NCBI RefSeq assembly: GCF_004102025.1
Contig: NZ_CP025228.1
Coordinates: 2,480,001-2,544,000, forward strand
DNA: 64,000 nt
DNA from: Actinomyces qiguomingii
Lineage (GTDB): Bacteria > Actinomycetota > Actinomycetes > Actinomycetales > Actinomycetaceae
Direction of reading: 5' to 3'
The position numbers were made by a program, and so were the translations under genes. The notes under the pieces were generated by a model. The model worked only from the letters and a program-made list of their open reading frames with translations, made no database searches and had not been told where the DNA came from. Every line of letters starts with the position of its first letter. Position 1 is the first letter of the stretch. Shown here piece after piece: positions 7,707-41,967 of the stretch.

Positions 7707-8254
7707 CGGGCCTCCTCCGGCTCACCCACCCCGGGGAACAGTCCACCGGGAGGGTCGATTACGACGGTGCCGGCGTCGGGGTTGATCTCGGGCACGAGTT
7801 GCTCTACGAAGGGGACCCGGACCTCCTGCCCCTGGGGGGTGCGCACCAACAGCCGATCCTGGGCCACACCCGGTTCCAGGCCGCTGACCTCACCGAGCTC
7901 GCGCACCGAGCCACCGGGCAAGAGCTGGATCGCCCGCAGCCCGACCAGTTCATGGGCGTACCAGGCGTCGTCCTCCGGTTCCTCAGCCTCGGCCTCGACC
8001 AACAGTTCGACGCCGCGCAGCGACTCCGCGGCAGTGCGGTCGGTAGCCTCGACGAAGGCAGCGAACCAGCGGTGTCCATCGAAACGTAGCCGGGAAACGG
8101 TGAGGCTCCCGGCGGCGGCGGGACCGATGGCGGGTTCGACGGGAAGAACGCTGCCGGGAGCGAGTCTGCCCTCCGGGTCATCGGTGCGGACATCCAGGCG
8201 TACCTCGCCCTTGAGCGCGTGGGCGGGGCCGATGACGGCGACGGTTAGCAGCAC
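7703..8254 (-). CDS. rimM: 16S rRNA processing protein RimM
   Basis: RimM binds S19 and helps mature the head of the 30S subunit. The RimM N-terminal domain begins LLTVAVIGPAHALKGEVRLDV, and the C-terminal PRC-barrel starts near DAWYAHELVGLRAI and ends VIDPPGGLFP. The GTG at 8254 gives 183 residues, has a GGGTAGG-like site upstream and matches the usual start. The open frame extends further upstream into the 19-bp repeat array and is not credible there. The stop overlaps trmD. A terminator and repeats separate this pair from rpsP-khpA, so rimM-trmD is probably its own transcript. Confidence 0.92.
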   Translation of the reverse strand: MLLTVAVIGPAHALKGEVRLDVRTDDPEGRLAPGSVLPVEPAIGPAAAGSLTVSRLRFDGHRWFAAFVEATDRTAAESLRGVELLVEAEAEEPEDDAWYAHELVGLRAIQLLPGGSVRELGEVSGLEPGVAQDRLLVRTPQGQEVRVPFVEQLVPEINPDAGTVVIDPPGGLFPGVGEPEEAR

Positions 8255-8340
8255 GAGAACTAACCTACCCCGCGCTGCCAGCCCCGGTACGCACCCGTCC
8301 GCTGCGCACATTCGGGTTATTGGACTGCCCAGCTGCGGAT

Positions 8341-8466
8341 GGACCCCCTGGCTGCCGTTGGACCACCTGGCTGCCGTTGGACCACCTGGCTGCCGTTGGA
8401 CCACCTGAAACGCACTCTCAGACGGTCCAACCGCAAAACCGCGGTCCAACCGCAGGAACCCGGTCC
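8341..8466. repeat. GGWCC head-to-head array, locus 1
   Basis: Three exact 19-bp units (CTGGCTGCCGTTGGACCAC) occupy 8348-8404, so GGACC recurs every 19 bases. After a 21-base centre the opposite sequence GGTCC appears at 8424, 8443 and 8462, again exactly 19 bases apart. The centre contains GAAACGCACTCTCAGAC, which is repeated in reverse at locus 2 (36627-36709). Confidence 0.9.
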
Positions 8467-8618
8467 AAGTACGCAGCCGGCAGCTGGCCGGGACCACTTG
8501 GGTGCCAGCTTGGGTGCCACTGCCGCCCTGGCCACACCTCCCCCAAAGGCATGGTCAAGACCATGGCGCCCACAAGAACAGCCCGCGACAAGCCGCAACA
8601 CCCTGCACCCTGGTCTAC

Positions 8619-8643
8619 AGCACCACGTTCGCACCGATAACCC
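8619..8643. mobile_element. solitary IS1249-type terminal inverted repeat
   Basis: The sequence AGCACCACGTTCGCACCGAT followed by AACCC matches the ends of the complete insertion element at 21932-23303, with only two differences from its left end over about 24 bases. No transposase and no convincing partner end lie nearby. It is therefore a remnant left by deletion, or one end of a decayed miniature element. Confidence 0.72.
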
Positions 8644-8660
8644 CAAGAAGCTGGAAAATG

Positions 8661-8695
8661 CCGCCGCCCGACCCCTTGTCGGGATCGGGCGGCGG
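8661..8695 (-). terminator. intrinsic terminator after khpA
   Basis: An 11-bp perfect stem (CCGCCGCCCGA facing TCGGGCGGCGG) with a 13-base loop. On the minus strand it is followed by GCATTTTCC, a short T run. It lies 27 bases past the khpA stop and should end the rpsP-khpA transcript. Confidence 0.78.
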
Positions 8696-8721
8696 TATTG
8701 GCTCGTTCGGGACTGTGCTCC

Positions 8722-21919: not shown

Positions 21920-21931
21920 TTCCTGAATTGG

Positions 21932-23303
21932 GAGTTATCGGCGCGAACGTGGTGCTTAAGATCGGGGTTTTGGTTGCTGTGGTGCGGGAAAGTCGGAGTG
22001 ATTATGGTCTGGGAGGTTAATCCGGGGCGGTGCTTGACATTCGCGGGTAGATGTGCGTGCCGTGAGAACACGGTCCCCACGAGCAAGACTCTGCCCGATC
22101 TGCCAGACCCCGATGAAGAAGTCCGGCCGCACCGCCGCAGGCACCAGGCGGTGGAAGTGCACCGCCTGCCGGTCCCTGGCCACCGCGCCGCGCCCACCCT
22201 CGCCGGGTAGGGCCGAACAGGCGGTGCTGGGCGAATTCATCGACTGGGCGACCGGCAGCCGCTCCCAGGCCGACATCTCCGGTGGTAGCGGCAGGGCGTT
22301 TCGCCGCCGGACGGCCTGGTGCTGGGACATCCCAGTACCCAAGCCGCCGGTCACCGGCGAGGTGTACTCCCAGATCTTCATCGACGGGATGTGGCTGGCC
22401 CACAAATGGGTGCTCCTGGTGGCCCGCAGTCCCACGCACGTGATCGCCTGGCAGTGGGCCGCGTCCGAGAGCGCGGCGGCCTACCAGGCGCTGCTAGCCG
22501 ACCTGGCCCCGCCCGACCTGGCAACCACCGACGGGGCCGGCGGCGCCTTGAAGGCCATCGCCGCCACCTGGCCGGGCACTCCCATCCAGCGGTGTCTGAT
22601 CCACGTGCACCGCGACACCGTCCGTGACCTGACCCACCATCCCAAGACCACCCCCGGCAAGGCCCTACTACGCCACTCCCGCAAACTGCTGAGCATCTCC
22701 ACCACCGAGCAGGCCACCAGGTGGCTGGTGACCCTGAACGACTACGGCATCCAGTACAAGGACTGGCTGAATCAGCGCACCACCGCCCAGCAGGACCCCC
22801 AAACCGCCGCCCGCACCGGCCGCAAGTGGTGGTACACCCACCCCCGGGCGCGCCGCGCCTGGCGGCGCCTGGAACGCCTGGCCAAGCAGGGCCAGCTGTT
22901 CGCCTACCTGACCGACCCGGACGGCAAGCCCCGCCCCACCCCCGCCGAGCGCACCACCAACCCCATAGAGTCCATCAACTCCCAGGTCCGCGACCGGCTG
23001 CGCCACCACCGCGGCGCCACCACTGATCACCAGGCTGCCATCGCCGAATGGACACTGCACACCTACACCCAGGCACCGGCCACGCCCGCGGTGATCCTGG
23101 CCGACTGGCACACCCAAGGCCGCCCCCAGCGCGCCCGCACACCCAAACCCAAAACAAACAAGCCCACCACCAGCCACCCCGCCGGATGGGGCACCACACC
23201 CACCCCCGAAGAAGGCCTCTGGGCCCGCAAAGGCTGGGCCGGACGAACCAGCTAGAACACCACGACACGCCGGTCTAAAGCACCACGTTTACGCCTATAA
23301 CCC
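21932..23303 (+). mobile_element. complete IS1249-family insertion sequence
   Basis: The 1372-bp element has imperfect terminal inverted repeats: GAGTTATCGGCGCGAACGTG at the left and, read inward from the right, GGGTTATAGGCGTAAACGTG. Both continue GTGCTT. An 8-bp direct repeat, TGAATTGG, flanks it at 21924-21931 and 23304-23311, which fixes the borders and is the duplication length typical of the IS256/IS1249 group. One intact transposase gene lies inside. Confidence 0.93.
22053..23255 (+). CDS. IS1249-family transposase
   Basis: A 400-residue transposase of the IS1249 type (an IS256-related group with DDE chemistry). The N-terminus carries a zinc-finger-like pattern, CPICQTPM followed by RWKCTAC. 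Core blocks are IFIDGMWLAHKWVLLVARS, LATTDGAGGALKAIAATWP, IQRCLIHVHRDT and TTNPIESINSQVRDRLRHHR. These supply plausible D, D and E residues in the expected order. The C-terminus is basic and Pro-rich. The frame is intact, so the element may be active. The gene ends 48 bases before the right end of the element. Confidence 0.92.
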   Translation: MRAVRTRSPRARLCPICQTPMKKSGRTAAGTRRWKCTACRSLATAPRPPSPGRAEQAVLGEFIDWATGSRSQADISGGSGRAFRRRTAWCWDIPVPKPPVTGEVYSQIFIDGMWLAHKWVLLVARSPTHVIAWQWAASESAAAYQALLADLAPPDLATTDGAGGALKAIAATWPGTPIQRCLIHVHRDTVRDLTHHPKTTPGKALLRHSRKLLSISTTEQATRWLVTLNDYGIQYKDWLNQRTTAQQDPQTAARTGRKWWYTHPRARRAWRRLERLAKQGQLFAYLTDPDGKPRPTPAERTTNPIESINSQVRDRLRHHRGATTDHQAAIAEWTLHTYTQAPATPAVILADWHTQGRPQRARTPKPKTNKPTTSHPAGWGTTPTPEEGLWARKGWAGRTS

Positions 23304-23321
23304 TGAATTGGGTGAAGTGTT

Positions 23322-36555: not shown

Positions 36556-36626
36556 AGCTTAACCGGCTCTTCCGGTTTGAGGTGTTGGCGGTGGTGGGTG
36601 TGGGCCTGGCCGGCTGCCGCCCCGTA

Positions 36627-36709
36627 CTTGGACCGCGCTACTGGGCTTGGACCGTCTGAGAGTGCGTTTCAGGCAGTCCAACCGCAGCCAGGCAGTCCAG
36701 TCCCAGCCG
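36627..36709. repeat. GGWCC head-to-head array, locus 2
   Basis: CTTGGACCG units begin at 36627 and 36646, 19 bases apart. After a 21-base centre the opposite half-units (GGCAGTCCA) begin at 36672 and 36691, again 19 apart. The right-hand sites are AGTCC rather than GGTCC, so slightly decayed. The centre is the reverse complement of the locus 1 centre over at least 20 bases. Confidence 0.87.
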
Positions 36710-36788
36710 ATCGGACAAGGAAGGGCCACGCGTGTCCGCCGCCAGCACCCGCAGCTCCGAGTCCCAGCCGTTCGGACGAGGAAGGGCC
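36699..36788. repeat. 29-bp direct repeat pair
   Basis: AGTCCCAGCCGATCGGACAA and the following nine bases (36699-36727) recur at 36760-36788 with two differences, 61 bases apart start to start. The first copy overlaps the right edge of the GGWCC array. Confidence 0.8.
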
Positions 36789-37001
36789 CGGTCGACAACC
36801 GCCCAGACCTGCCCGCCGCACCAGGGCGGTAGGCCGGCACATGAAACACCAAAGTGTCCAGAATCGGCACAAACACCCCGCCCCTCCCAGCAGACGCCCT
36901 CAGATTCGTTGGAACTATGCGGCTGCAGTGGGCCGCTTCGGGTACGGGAACATCGTTTGTGCAGAATCCGGACACCTCCCCAGGGCCCGACAGCCCCACC
37001 A

Positions 37002-37061
37002 ACCGAACTCGATGGTTATATCGACCGAACTCGATGGTTATATCGACCGAACTCGGCGAAC
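37002..37061. repeat. 22-bp dyad repeat array, locus C
   Basis: Units begin at 37002, 37024 and 37046, each starting ACCGAACTCG. The first two are identical over all 22 bases and carry GATGGTTATATCG. This is the cleanest copy of the family, in the same orientation as locus B. Confidence 0.92.
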
Positions 37062-37076
37062 ACGGCCCAAACCGGA

Positions 37077-37096
37077 AGAGCCGGAAAACCGGCTCT
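37077..37096. terminator. hairpin between the repeat block and the LysR relic
   Basis: AGAGCCGG faces CCGGCTCT with an AAAA loop, followed by TTC. The left arm is part of a 16-base sequence that also occurs in reverse at 36561-36578, so this hairpin may mark a rearrangement joint rather than a functioning terminator. Confidence 0.4.
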
Positions 37097-41094: not shown

Positions 41095-41370
41095 GACGAC
41101 GCCGCCCACCGCGCCGAGGCTCCGACGACGGCGGAACCGCACCGCGGTACCACCTCGCTTGCCCGCTCCGGCCAGACCGGTGCGGACCGCTTGATTCGCA
41201 GCTGTGACGGGCTGTCCCGTCCGGTTCTACTTGGGGCCCTGCCGTGCAGGGACCGGTTCTTCCGGAGGCTCACCGGTGATGGCCGGGTCGATGCCTGTGG
41301 CGGTGAGTGTAACCGCGGACCGCGCACCCGACCATTCCCAGACGGCTCCAAGTAGCGTCATCCTCGCCAC
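41095..41370 (-). promoter_or_regulatory. T-box riboswitch of ileS
   Basis: Reading the minus strand, the T-box sequence AGGTGGTACCGCG lies at about 41142-41155, some 110 bases before the start codon. Its UGGU bulge can pair with the ACCA end of uncharged tRNA-Ile. A candidate specifier codon ATC (complement of 41290-41292, context CAGGCATCGACC) lies in the upstream stem region, which opens with GAGGATGACGCTACTTGG. No T run follows the T-box, whereas CCTCG in the leader can pair with the CGAGG ribosome site. That fits translational control, as known for actinobacterial ileS T-boxes. Exact borders are estimates. Confidence 0.87.
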
Positions 41371-41560
41371 ACCCCCGGTTTGGGCGCGCGGGTGATCGGT
41401 GTGGGCGCGGTTTTCTGGACCGGCGCGGGCGTGGTCTTGTGAAGGTGTTCTTGTGGTGGTTACGTGGTGCCCGGTCCCTGCGGGTTTGGAGGCGTTCTTC
41501 TGGGATGGGTGTGCCGCCCCGTGCCTGTGTCGAGCTTTCCCACCGGCACTCACCGTCCGC

Positions 41561-41700
41561 CGCACGCTGCCCGCCACAAACCGTCCGCCGCACGCTGCCC
41601 GCCGCACGCTGCCCGCCACAAACCGTCCGCCGCACGCTGCCCGCCGCACGCTGCCCGCCACAAACCGTCCGCCGCACGCTGCCCGCCACAAACCGTCCGC
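41561..41700. repeat. 14-bp composite minisatellite
   Basis: Ten consecutive 14-base units of two kinds, A (CGCACGCTGCCCGC) and B (CACAAACCGTCCGC), in the order A-B-A-A-B-A-A-B-A-B, all exact. The higher-order A-A-B pattern of 42 bases suggests expansion by slippage or unequal exchange. Confidence 0.95.
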
Positions 41701-41792
41701 CGCGCGCTCCGAGGCGAAAGCCGCCCCAGTTCTTCCCCCGCTACTTCGAGGAGACCCCCGATCCTGCACACACACCAGCGCCGACAACTCCC

Positions 41793-41967
41793 GTTTGGAC
41801 CGCTTGTCTCTGTTTGGACCGCTCTTCTCTGTCTGGACCGCTCTTCTCTGTCTGGACCGCCGTAGTGTGCAACTGGGGCGGTCCAAACCGACGCAGGGGG
41901 TCCAAACCGACGCAGGGGGTCCAAACCGACGCAGGGGGGTCCAAACCGACGTGGGCGGTCCAAACCC
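41793..41967. repeat. GGWCC head-to-head array, locus 3
   Basis: On the left, GTYTGGACCGC units begin at 41793, 41812, 41831 and 41850, spaced 19 bases. After a 21-base centre, GGTCCAAACC units begin at 41880, 41899, 41918, 41938 and 41957, spaced 19, 19, 20 and 19. This is the longest copy of the family. Its centre differs from loci 1 and 2, but the spacing is the same. Confidence 0.94.

Follow-up and report, generated by a model that had tools for sequence, protein, structure and literature searches.

Bacterial MITEs, which are non-autonomous miniature transposons, are usually described as one family with one transposase. Among described systems, the closest relative that we know of to the repeats analyzed here would be the pneumococcal BOX element, from which they are set apart by plan, the comparison being one of architecture and not of sequence. 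In a published account (PMC3049150), the BOX elements of Streptococcus pneumoniae and S. suis are small composite repeats with insertion sequence-like termini and a variable tandem boxB, for which mobilization by a resident insertion sequence has been proposed; like the Actinomyces repeats, they are MITE-like composites with a varying number of tandem internal modules. The Actinomyces cassette is unlike BOX in having two facing arrays of different 19-bp units around a fixed 21-base centre, and in that its plan is held by at least three terminus families. boxB modules are 45 bp, larger than the 19-bp units, and form a single tandem run.

Other known systems share some features with the cassette and lack others. 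ISL3-family MITEs are similar in their termini (GGCTCTTCC...), in 8-bp duplications and in the presence of an ISL3 insertion sequence in the same genome. However, the full ISL3 element contains no array, and the ISL3 transposase has no match in two array-rich genomes of the genus, G013 (151 unit pairs) and G011 (187 unit pairs; genome 82% complete). IS1249/IS256-family MITEs are similar in that some cassettes have termini matching an IS1249 element of the window, with exact 8-bp duplications in 3 of 12, but the full element carries no array, and at one site in G013 and G066 such a terminus accompanies array-free sequence. REP/BIME repeats with their RAYT transposases also consist of facing palindromic intergenic units; they differ in forming one hairpin instead of iterated 19-bp units, and no RAYT was found in the genus sample. 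No description of such a repeat was found in the open-access literature.

The repeats were noticed in the window, by which we mean the whole 64,000-nucleotide stretch of Actinomyces qiguomingii DNA that was analyzed. The locus at 41793-41967 lies upstream of a NirA-like reductase gene and beside ileS; the best model for the NirA-like gene is ferredoxin-nitrite reductase, with a score below the curated cut-off. The features of the window referred to below are the following.

41795..41853, no strand assigned: left array of the cassette upstream of the NirA-like gene; units begin TTTGGACC/TCTGGACC, with a 19-bp step and three units outward of the centre.
41854..41884, no strand assigned: centre of the same cassette, GGACC-N21-GGTCC, class II, an imperfect palindrome.
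41885..41961, no strand assigned: right array of the same cassette, GGTCCAAA units, with steps of 19, 19, 20 and 19 from the GGTCC of the centre.
41771..41790, minus strand: candidate degenerate IS1249-type terminus beside the same cassette, mismatched at 6 of 20 positions.
8320..8466, plus strand: class I cassette in the interval between rimM and the KH-protein gene, with A array, centre (8398-8428) and B array.
8624..8643, minus strand: IS1249-type terminus to the right of the 8.4-kb cassette, 1 mismatch in 20.
36565..37082, minus strand: ISL3-type MITE containing the 36.6-kb cassette, with both termini, GGCTCTTCCGGTTTGAGG / GCCCAAACCGGAAGAGCC.
36630..36698, minus strand: class I cassette within this MITE, with right-hand cores AGTCC.
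21932..23303, plus strand: apparently intact IS1249-family insertion sequence, flanked at 21924-21931 and 23304-23311 by TGAATTGG, an exact duplication of 8 bp.
22053..23255, plus strand: IS1249 family transposase of 400 aa (NF033544, 384 bits, cut-off 300; PF00872, 31 bits, cut-off 21).

The first-pass annotation had described three intergenic loci sharing one plan, in which GGACC recurs every 19 bases, a centre of 21 bases follows, and GGTCC then recurs every 19 bases in the opposite sense. Base-by-base reading of 41793-41967 places GGACC at 41797, 41816, 41835 and 41854, then the 21-base centre, then GGTCC at 41880, 41899, 41918, 41938 and 41957, one step being 20 and not 19. At 8341-8466, GGACC at 8341, 8360, 8379 and 8398 and GGTCC at 8424, 8443 and 8462 stand on either side of a 21-base centre, and the outermost left core of this cassette is GGACT. 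The plan holds at these two loci and more loosely at 36627-36709, where GGACC occurs at 36630 and 36649 and the right cores are AGTCC, so that it fits with one substitution per right core. The ISL3-type MITE around this third cassette has no clean target duplication in its flanks (GCTTAACC / GGAAAACC). The sole terminus candidate beside the first locus, at 41771-41790, is at chance level, with 18 matches in the window equally loose at 6 of 20 mismatches; only its location points to it as a possible terminus, so that the cassette is assigned to the IS1249 type by its class and not by its end.

The surroundings of these loci have features of their own. The 8.4-kb cassette (8250-8720) lies inside an rpsP-KH-rimM-trmD cluster, in the gap between the KH-protein gene and rimM, both of which were recognized by their models; we take the other two genes, from their sequences, to be rpsP and trmD. 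In the intergenic region of the class II cassette, a tandem repeat of CCGCCGCACGCTGCCCGCCACAAACCGT type was seen by eye at 41560-41700. On the ileS strand, 41146-41231 carries a motif resembling the T-box sequence conserved in leaders of aminoacyl-tRNA-synthetase genes (it is the reverse complement of GGTACCACCTC, at 41146); no T-box in the window was matched by Rfam. No Rfam family matched the window at its gathering score, the best being a sub-threshold match to MIR4239 (31.2 bits against 100) that is taken as chance, and a known structured RNA family was ruled out for the arrays on this ground.

Oriented by its centre, a cassette consists of an A array, a 31-bp centre and a B array, with A units that differ from B units and with both varying by class and by species. 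In the pooled unit consensus, TTGGACC precedes twelve bases of weak conservation. Among the 78 class I copies of the A. qiguomingii genome, which were retrieved by the sequence of the centre regardless of spacing, 315 of 322 unit steps measure exactly 19 bp. When 114 cassettes of six named species are added, the figure is 803 of 841, the spacing being partly built into these 114 by a pattern that required at least one 19-bp step and the 21-base centre. The unit walker tried 19 bp first, with two core mismatches allowed, and admitted one mismatch at other steps; by this procedure, 8 of the 78 copies lack an A unit and one lacks a B unit. Arms mostly hold 0-4 units, and the copy numbers of left and right arms are weakly correlated (-0.03 to 0.37 in five genomes). 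Clustered by their Hamming distance from five typed reference sequences, the centres form class I, typically with CTGAAACGCACTCTCAG inside, class II with GCACAC, class III with GTAGCCGCCGGTTAC, and two smaller classes; the centre at 41854-41884 belongs to class II.

In the window, GGACC-N14-GGACC occurs 12 times on both strands, compared with a mean of 0.51 in shuffled sequence, and none of 100 shuffles reaches 12, which bears out the view that the pattern exceeds chance. The N21 centre by itself is weak (2 against 0.29, a count reached by 4 of 100 shuffles). Genome-wide, the same unit pair is found 150 + 149 times (58 + 40 for a backward-pattern control), GGACC-N21-GGTCC at 67 sites (backward control 16), the longer TTGGACC-N12-TTGGACC 79 + 97 times (control 0), and the class I centre at 78 sites within three mismatches, 53 of them exact (control 0). 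The search that had been suggested for this genome and related ones thus recovered a family: besides the 78 class I sites, at least one TTGGACC-N12-TTGGACC pair is present in 13 of 49 genus genomes, with a backward control of 0 in all 49. Counts are high in G029 (207), G011 (187), the A. qiguomingii genome (176), G013 (151), G063 (68) and G066 (45), and low in G020 (21), G021 (13), G014 (12), G061 (3), G064 (2), G030 (1) and G008 (1). A scan of a genome collection for two units, the centre and GGTCC gave 107 stretches, all 107 in Actinomyces: A. ruminis 37, A. glycerinitolerans 34, A. succiniciruminis 17, A. ruminicola 15, A. dentalis 3 and A. massiliensis 1. Viral contigs scanned with the two-unit-plus-centre pattern had no exact match, and a phage origin of the arrays was rejected on that basis. 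These cross-species patterns all demand core and spacing, and variants with another core or another spacing escape them. In the more distant G020, the 19/21 plan was seen by eye to adjoin a transposase-helix-turn-helix-like stretch at five loci (L279, L288, L290, L292 and L294), and at L290 an ISL3-like end lies near the array.

The claim that core and spacing are conserved more than sequence holds across classes: in 803 pooled units, core positions carry 1.07-1.95 bits and spacer positions 0.20-1.02 bits, the core values being inflated by the picking of units by core and the contrast partly selected by a search for core and spacing. It does not hold in arm A of class I, where the spacer (mean of about 1.47 bits) is as conserved as the core (1.42), a result that copies made recently would be expected to give; in arm B the spacer is the less conserved of the two. 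Where A. succiniciruminis and A. glycerinitolerans have orthologous arrays, these differ at 0 of 98 core and 7 of 168 spacer positions (p = 0.049), a small and borderline test to which four of six pairs contributed, arms of unequal length having been dropped. Spacer identity is higher within arrays than between arrays in all six arm sets from three genomes (for example, 0.884 vs 0.776 and 0.937 vs 0.764). The first-pass annotation had also reasoned that this spacing would put all cores on one face of the DNA. With 10.5 bp to a turn, however, a step of 19 bp amounts to some 1.8 turns; by arithmetic, each core lies about 70 degrees off the previous one, and a single face does not follow.

When the flanks of all 78 class I copies were compared with one another, sharp outer ends emerged. 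The left end, GGCTCTTCCGGTTTGAGGGTGTG, is often several hundred bases from the centre, and the right end, CACCCTCAAACCGGAAGAGCC, mostly about 80-140 bases; the two form an inverted repeat and are similar to the ends, GGCTCTTCGTGTTTGAGG, of a 1448-bp ISL3-family element. The transposase of this element has ten equal-scoring copies in the genome. Where the ends of these copies were located (5 of 10), they are 1448 bp apart, and 8-bp duplications were read by eye in those five. The assignment of such termini to ISL3 is made through this resident element. When ends of 18-20 bp were sought within 700 bp at up to four mismatches, an ISL3-type end was found for 66 of the 78 class I copies, both ends for 23 and none of the three terminus types for 8, compared with an ISL3-type end at 32 of 709 control points drawn from all loci away from arrays. 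In 23 two-ended copies, whose ends were located by a slightly different rule from that of the 700-bp search, a target duplication agreeing at 6 or more of 8 bases is present in 7, four of them exact, as against 2.8% on random re-pairing. The other 16 have no clear target duplication, and in nine of the 23 at most two bases agree; decay, recombination or misplacement of the ends is therefore common. In the empty-site comparison of L141 against L028, copies of CCGGAAG are found in flanking position, and they were not counted as a target duplication because the word belongs to the ISL3-type end. The earlier idea that the pattern does not reflect simple copying finds no support in this genome, whose copies look spread by miniature transposons.

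Not every ISL3-type MITE has an array. Nineteen stretches around such ends contain eight two-ended MITEs with no exact unit pair: L206, L208, L212 and L215 appear to be copies of a single different MITE, L211 is a relative of the class I carriers, and L214 contains, by eye, a degenerate cassette. Many ISL3-type carriers, L108 and further class I carriers among them, have by eye another iterated module, roughly 23 bp long (CCGAGTTCGGTCGAAATAACCA or a variant of it), at the left end of the left arm. The ISL3 transposase is present in genomes without unit pairs, such as G033 and G036, and absent by match from G013 and G011; the array is therefore not tied to one transposase.

Other classes have other carriers. 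An IS1249-type terminus, GRGTTATMGGCGCGAACGTG, lies on at least one side of 19 of 30 A. ruminis class II copies (7 of 709 control points), and these termini match the window element at 21932-23303, which has no 19-bp unit pair within it and is a possible source of the transposase for class II carriers. The 12 two-sided IS1249-type cassettes in which exact 8-bp duplications were counted include two that share one pair of ends. In A. glycerinitolerans L003 and L022, GAAAATGA stands to the left of one IS1249-type MITE and to the right of the other; the flanks may have been exchanged, as if recombined or misassembled. A third terminus, CTAGGTCCTGTTGTGTAAGT, is found on at least one side of 24 of 32 A. 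glycerinitolerans and 5 of 11 A. succiniciruminis class III copies (29 of 43; control 0 of 709), and 8 of these 43 have IS1249-type ends on both sides. Classes I and V tend to go with ISL3, class II with IS1249 and class III mostly with the third terminus. With carriers of three terminus types sharing TTGGACC on a 19-bp step and a 21-bp centre, the plan occurs in at least three MITE families, with differing inter-core bases. Of 192 cassettes, a set that leaves out four class II copies of the A. qiguomingii genome, 49 have none of the three termini nearby (A. qiguomingii 8, A. glycerinitolerans 7, A. succiniciruminis 6, A. ruminis 13, A. ruminicola 11, A. dentalis 3 and A. massiliensis 1), and the copies are therefore not all parts of one known element. 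The carriers of ISL3 and IS1249 type have the terminal inverted repeats of MITEs (at least one end near 66 of 78 copies in class I), no transposase of their own and related full-length insertion sequences in the genome (ISL3 and IS1249); target-site duplications accompany a minority (7 of 23 of ISL3 type, 3 of 12 of IS1249 type).

The annotation had further suggested that an oligomerizing protein or nucleoid factor could read the arrays. The core and spacing common to the classes agree with this, but no binding protein or partner gene was found near the arrays: no dedicated partner appeared among the 25 largest groups of reading frames of at least 120 codons within 3.5 kb, frames within 150 bp of an array being omitted. 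The largest single-genome group, of six loci 223-351 bp from arrays, is taken as carrier arms. The search also gave one 22-member group across six species and some groups of three.

The history of individual sites points to turnover. As had been claimed, the family is intergenic: none of the 78 class I copies falls in a gene predicted by our home-made and insensitive caller. At the nirA site, read in five genomes, A. qiguomingii has class II, G029 has class III in a carrier of the third terminus type, and G013, G064 and G066 lack a cassette; overall, arrays are present in 2 of 28 loci, lone chance pairs or centres in L223, L246 and L257 not being counted. At the rimM site they are present in 2 of 30 fetched loci, as class I in A. 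qiguomingii and class II in G011, and G013 and G066 have sequence with an IS1249-type end, read by eye, and no array. One intergenic site is occupied in four species (A. qiguomingii L177, class I; A. ruminicola L004, class I; A. ruminis L016, class II; A. glycerinitolerans L088, class III), in loci that were chosen for having arrays, so that no rate can be derived. A conserved placement of arrays was rejected, the rimM and nirA samples, which were not picked by array, being patchy and the nirA carriers differing. Given this patchy presence and the two carriers at nirA, shared sites can be read as repeated insertion in permissive regions. We take them to reflect repeated insertion or exchange among carriers, with presence turning over between related species; alternatively, shared sites may be ancestral arrays overwritten by conversion.

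From these observations we consider it probable that the repeats are a portable cassette, most copies of which lie within or next to the ends of non-autonomous MITEs belonging to three or more terminus families, with arrays possibly read by a protein. The cassette would comprise two facing arrays, the left one of 19-bp units and the right one of another 19-bp unit, with an imperfectly palindromic 31-bp centre between them. ISL3 and IS1249 transposases would move the MITEs, and the arrays would lengthen and shorten in place by tandem duplication. With less assurance, we propose that a putative sequence-specific protein reads the array as double-stranded DNA and aids the small elements or shields the host. 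The genome holds ISL3- and IS1249-type termini and full-length elements of both families, cassettes are present or absent between close relatives, a minority have exact or near-exact 8-bp target duplications, and units are more alike within arrays than between them. MITE mobility is well supported for class I and fairly supported for the other classes.

A less likely but still plausible explanation is that the cassette moves as an element in its own right, inserting into MITEs, insertion sequences and intergenic DNA. The occurrence of one plan in three terminus families and the 49 of 192 cassettes with no recognized terminus would fit such an element, as would the lone cassettes that differ between species at one gene border (L062/L100 vs L059; L013 vs L033) and the outer ends, which by eye and among the copies listed are often CTACTTGG...CCAAGTAG. 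However, no target duplication of the cassette itself was found, nor a partner gene by the arrays, and centre class tends to track the carrier family, if not strictly, class III also occurring with IS1249 ends (8 of 43). This tracking fits long co-inheritance better than frequent hopping. We regard it as improbable that the arrays are host-owned nucleoid or chromosome-partition sites comparable to parS or chromosome-organizing motifs. Core and spacing are common to several species, and the dnaA-proximal half of the chromosome contains 56 of the 78 class I copies (p = 0.00015), but it contains 8 of 10 ISL3 elements as well, so that the skew looks like a property of insertion. Patchy presence also disfavours a host site: only 13 of 49 genus genomes have any unit pair, the close relative G064 has only two, and the nirA site has no cassette in three of four close relatives and another class in another carrier in the fourth.

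Formation of a large hairpin by the inverted arrays, in RNA or single-stranded DNA (as a terminator, small RNA or transposition intermediate), is very doubtful as the main constraint. It would account for cores that are complementary between arms, for an imperfectly palindromic centre whose pairing exceeds that of shuffles in classes I, III and V pooled (reached by 1 of 1000) and in class V (5 of 1000), and for the excess of class I copies between convergent genes (18 of 52 vs 6 of 47, p = 0.018, by the home-made caller, with 26 of the 78 copies unclassified). Within class I, II or III, however, centre pairing is not above shuffles (176, 120 and 610 of 1000, respectively). The 12 inter-core bases differ between arms, and A-B arm identity in A. 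qiguomingii is no greater within an element (0.515) than between elements (0.523). In 309 rank-matched units from all genomes, 104 left and 37 right cores are variant, with the same variant in only 2, and the weak correlation of arm copy numbers also speaks against pairing. Arms that are not complementary beyond their cores suggest a duplex DNA site in preference to a hairpin. Least probable by far are REP/BIME-like palindromes mobilized by a Y1 (RAYT) transposase; the repeats are likewise numerous, small, intergenic and palindromic, in facing pairs, but Y1_Tnp (PF01797) has no match in any of the 49 genus genomes, with a control positive in 5 of 14 known genomes, which contradicts this explanation.

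The arrays give rise to long spurious-looking reading frames, and they are a masking target for the annotation of these genomes. Tentatively, the array might be a module with a function of its own that is common to unrelated transposon families, a putative duplex site that would recruit a host or element protein, would give an advantage to any MITE acquiring it and perhaps moves from carrier to carrier by itself. Within a single genus, three or more terminus families share one architectural plan, the core and the spacing being common to them and the rest differing. If selection and not descent alone maintains it, the arrays would be a selectable module inside selfish DNA.
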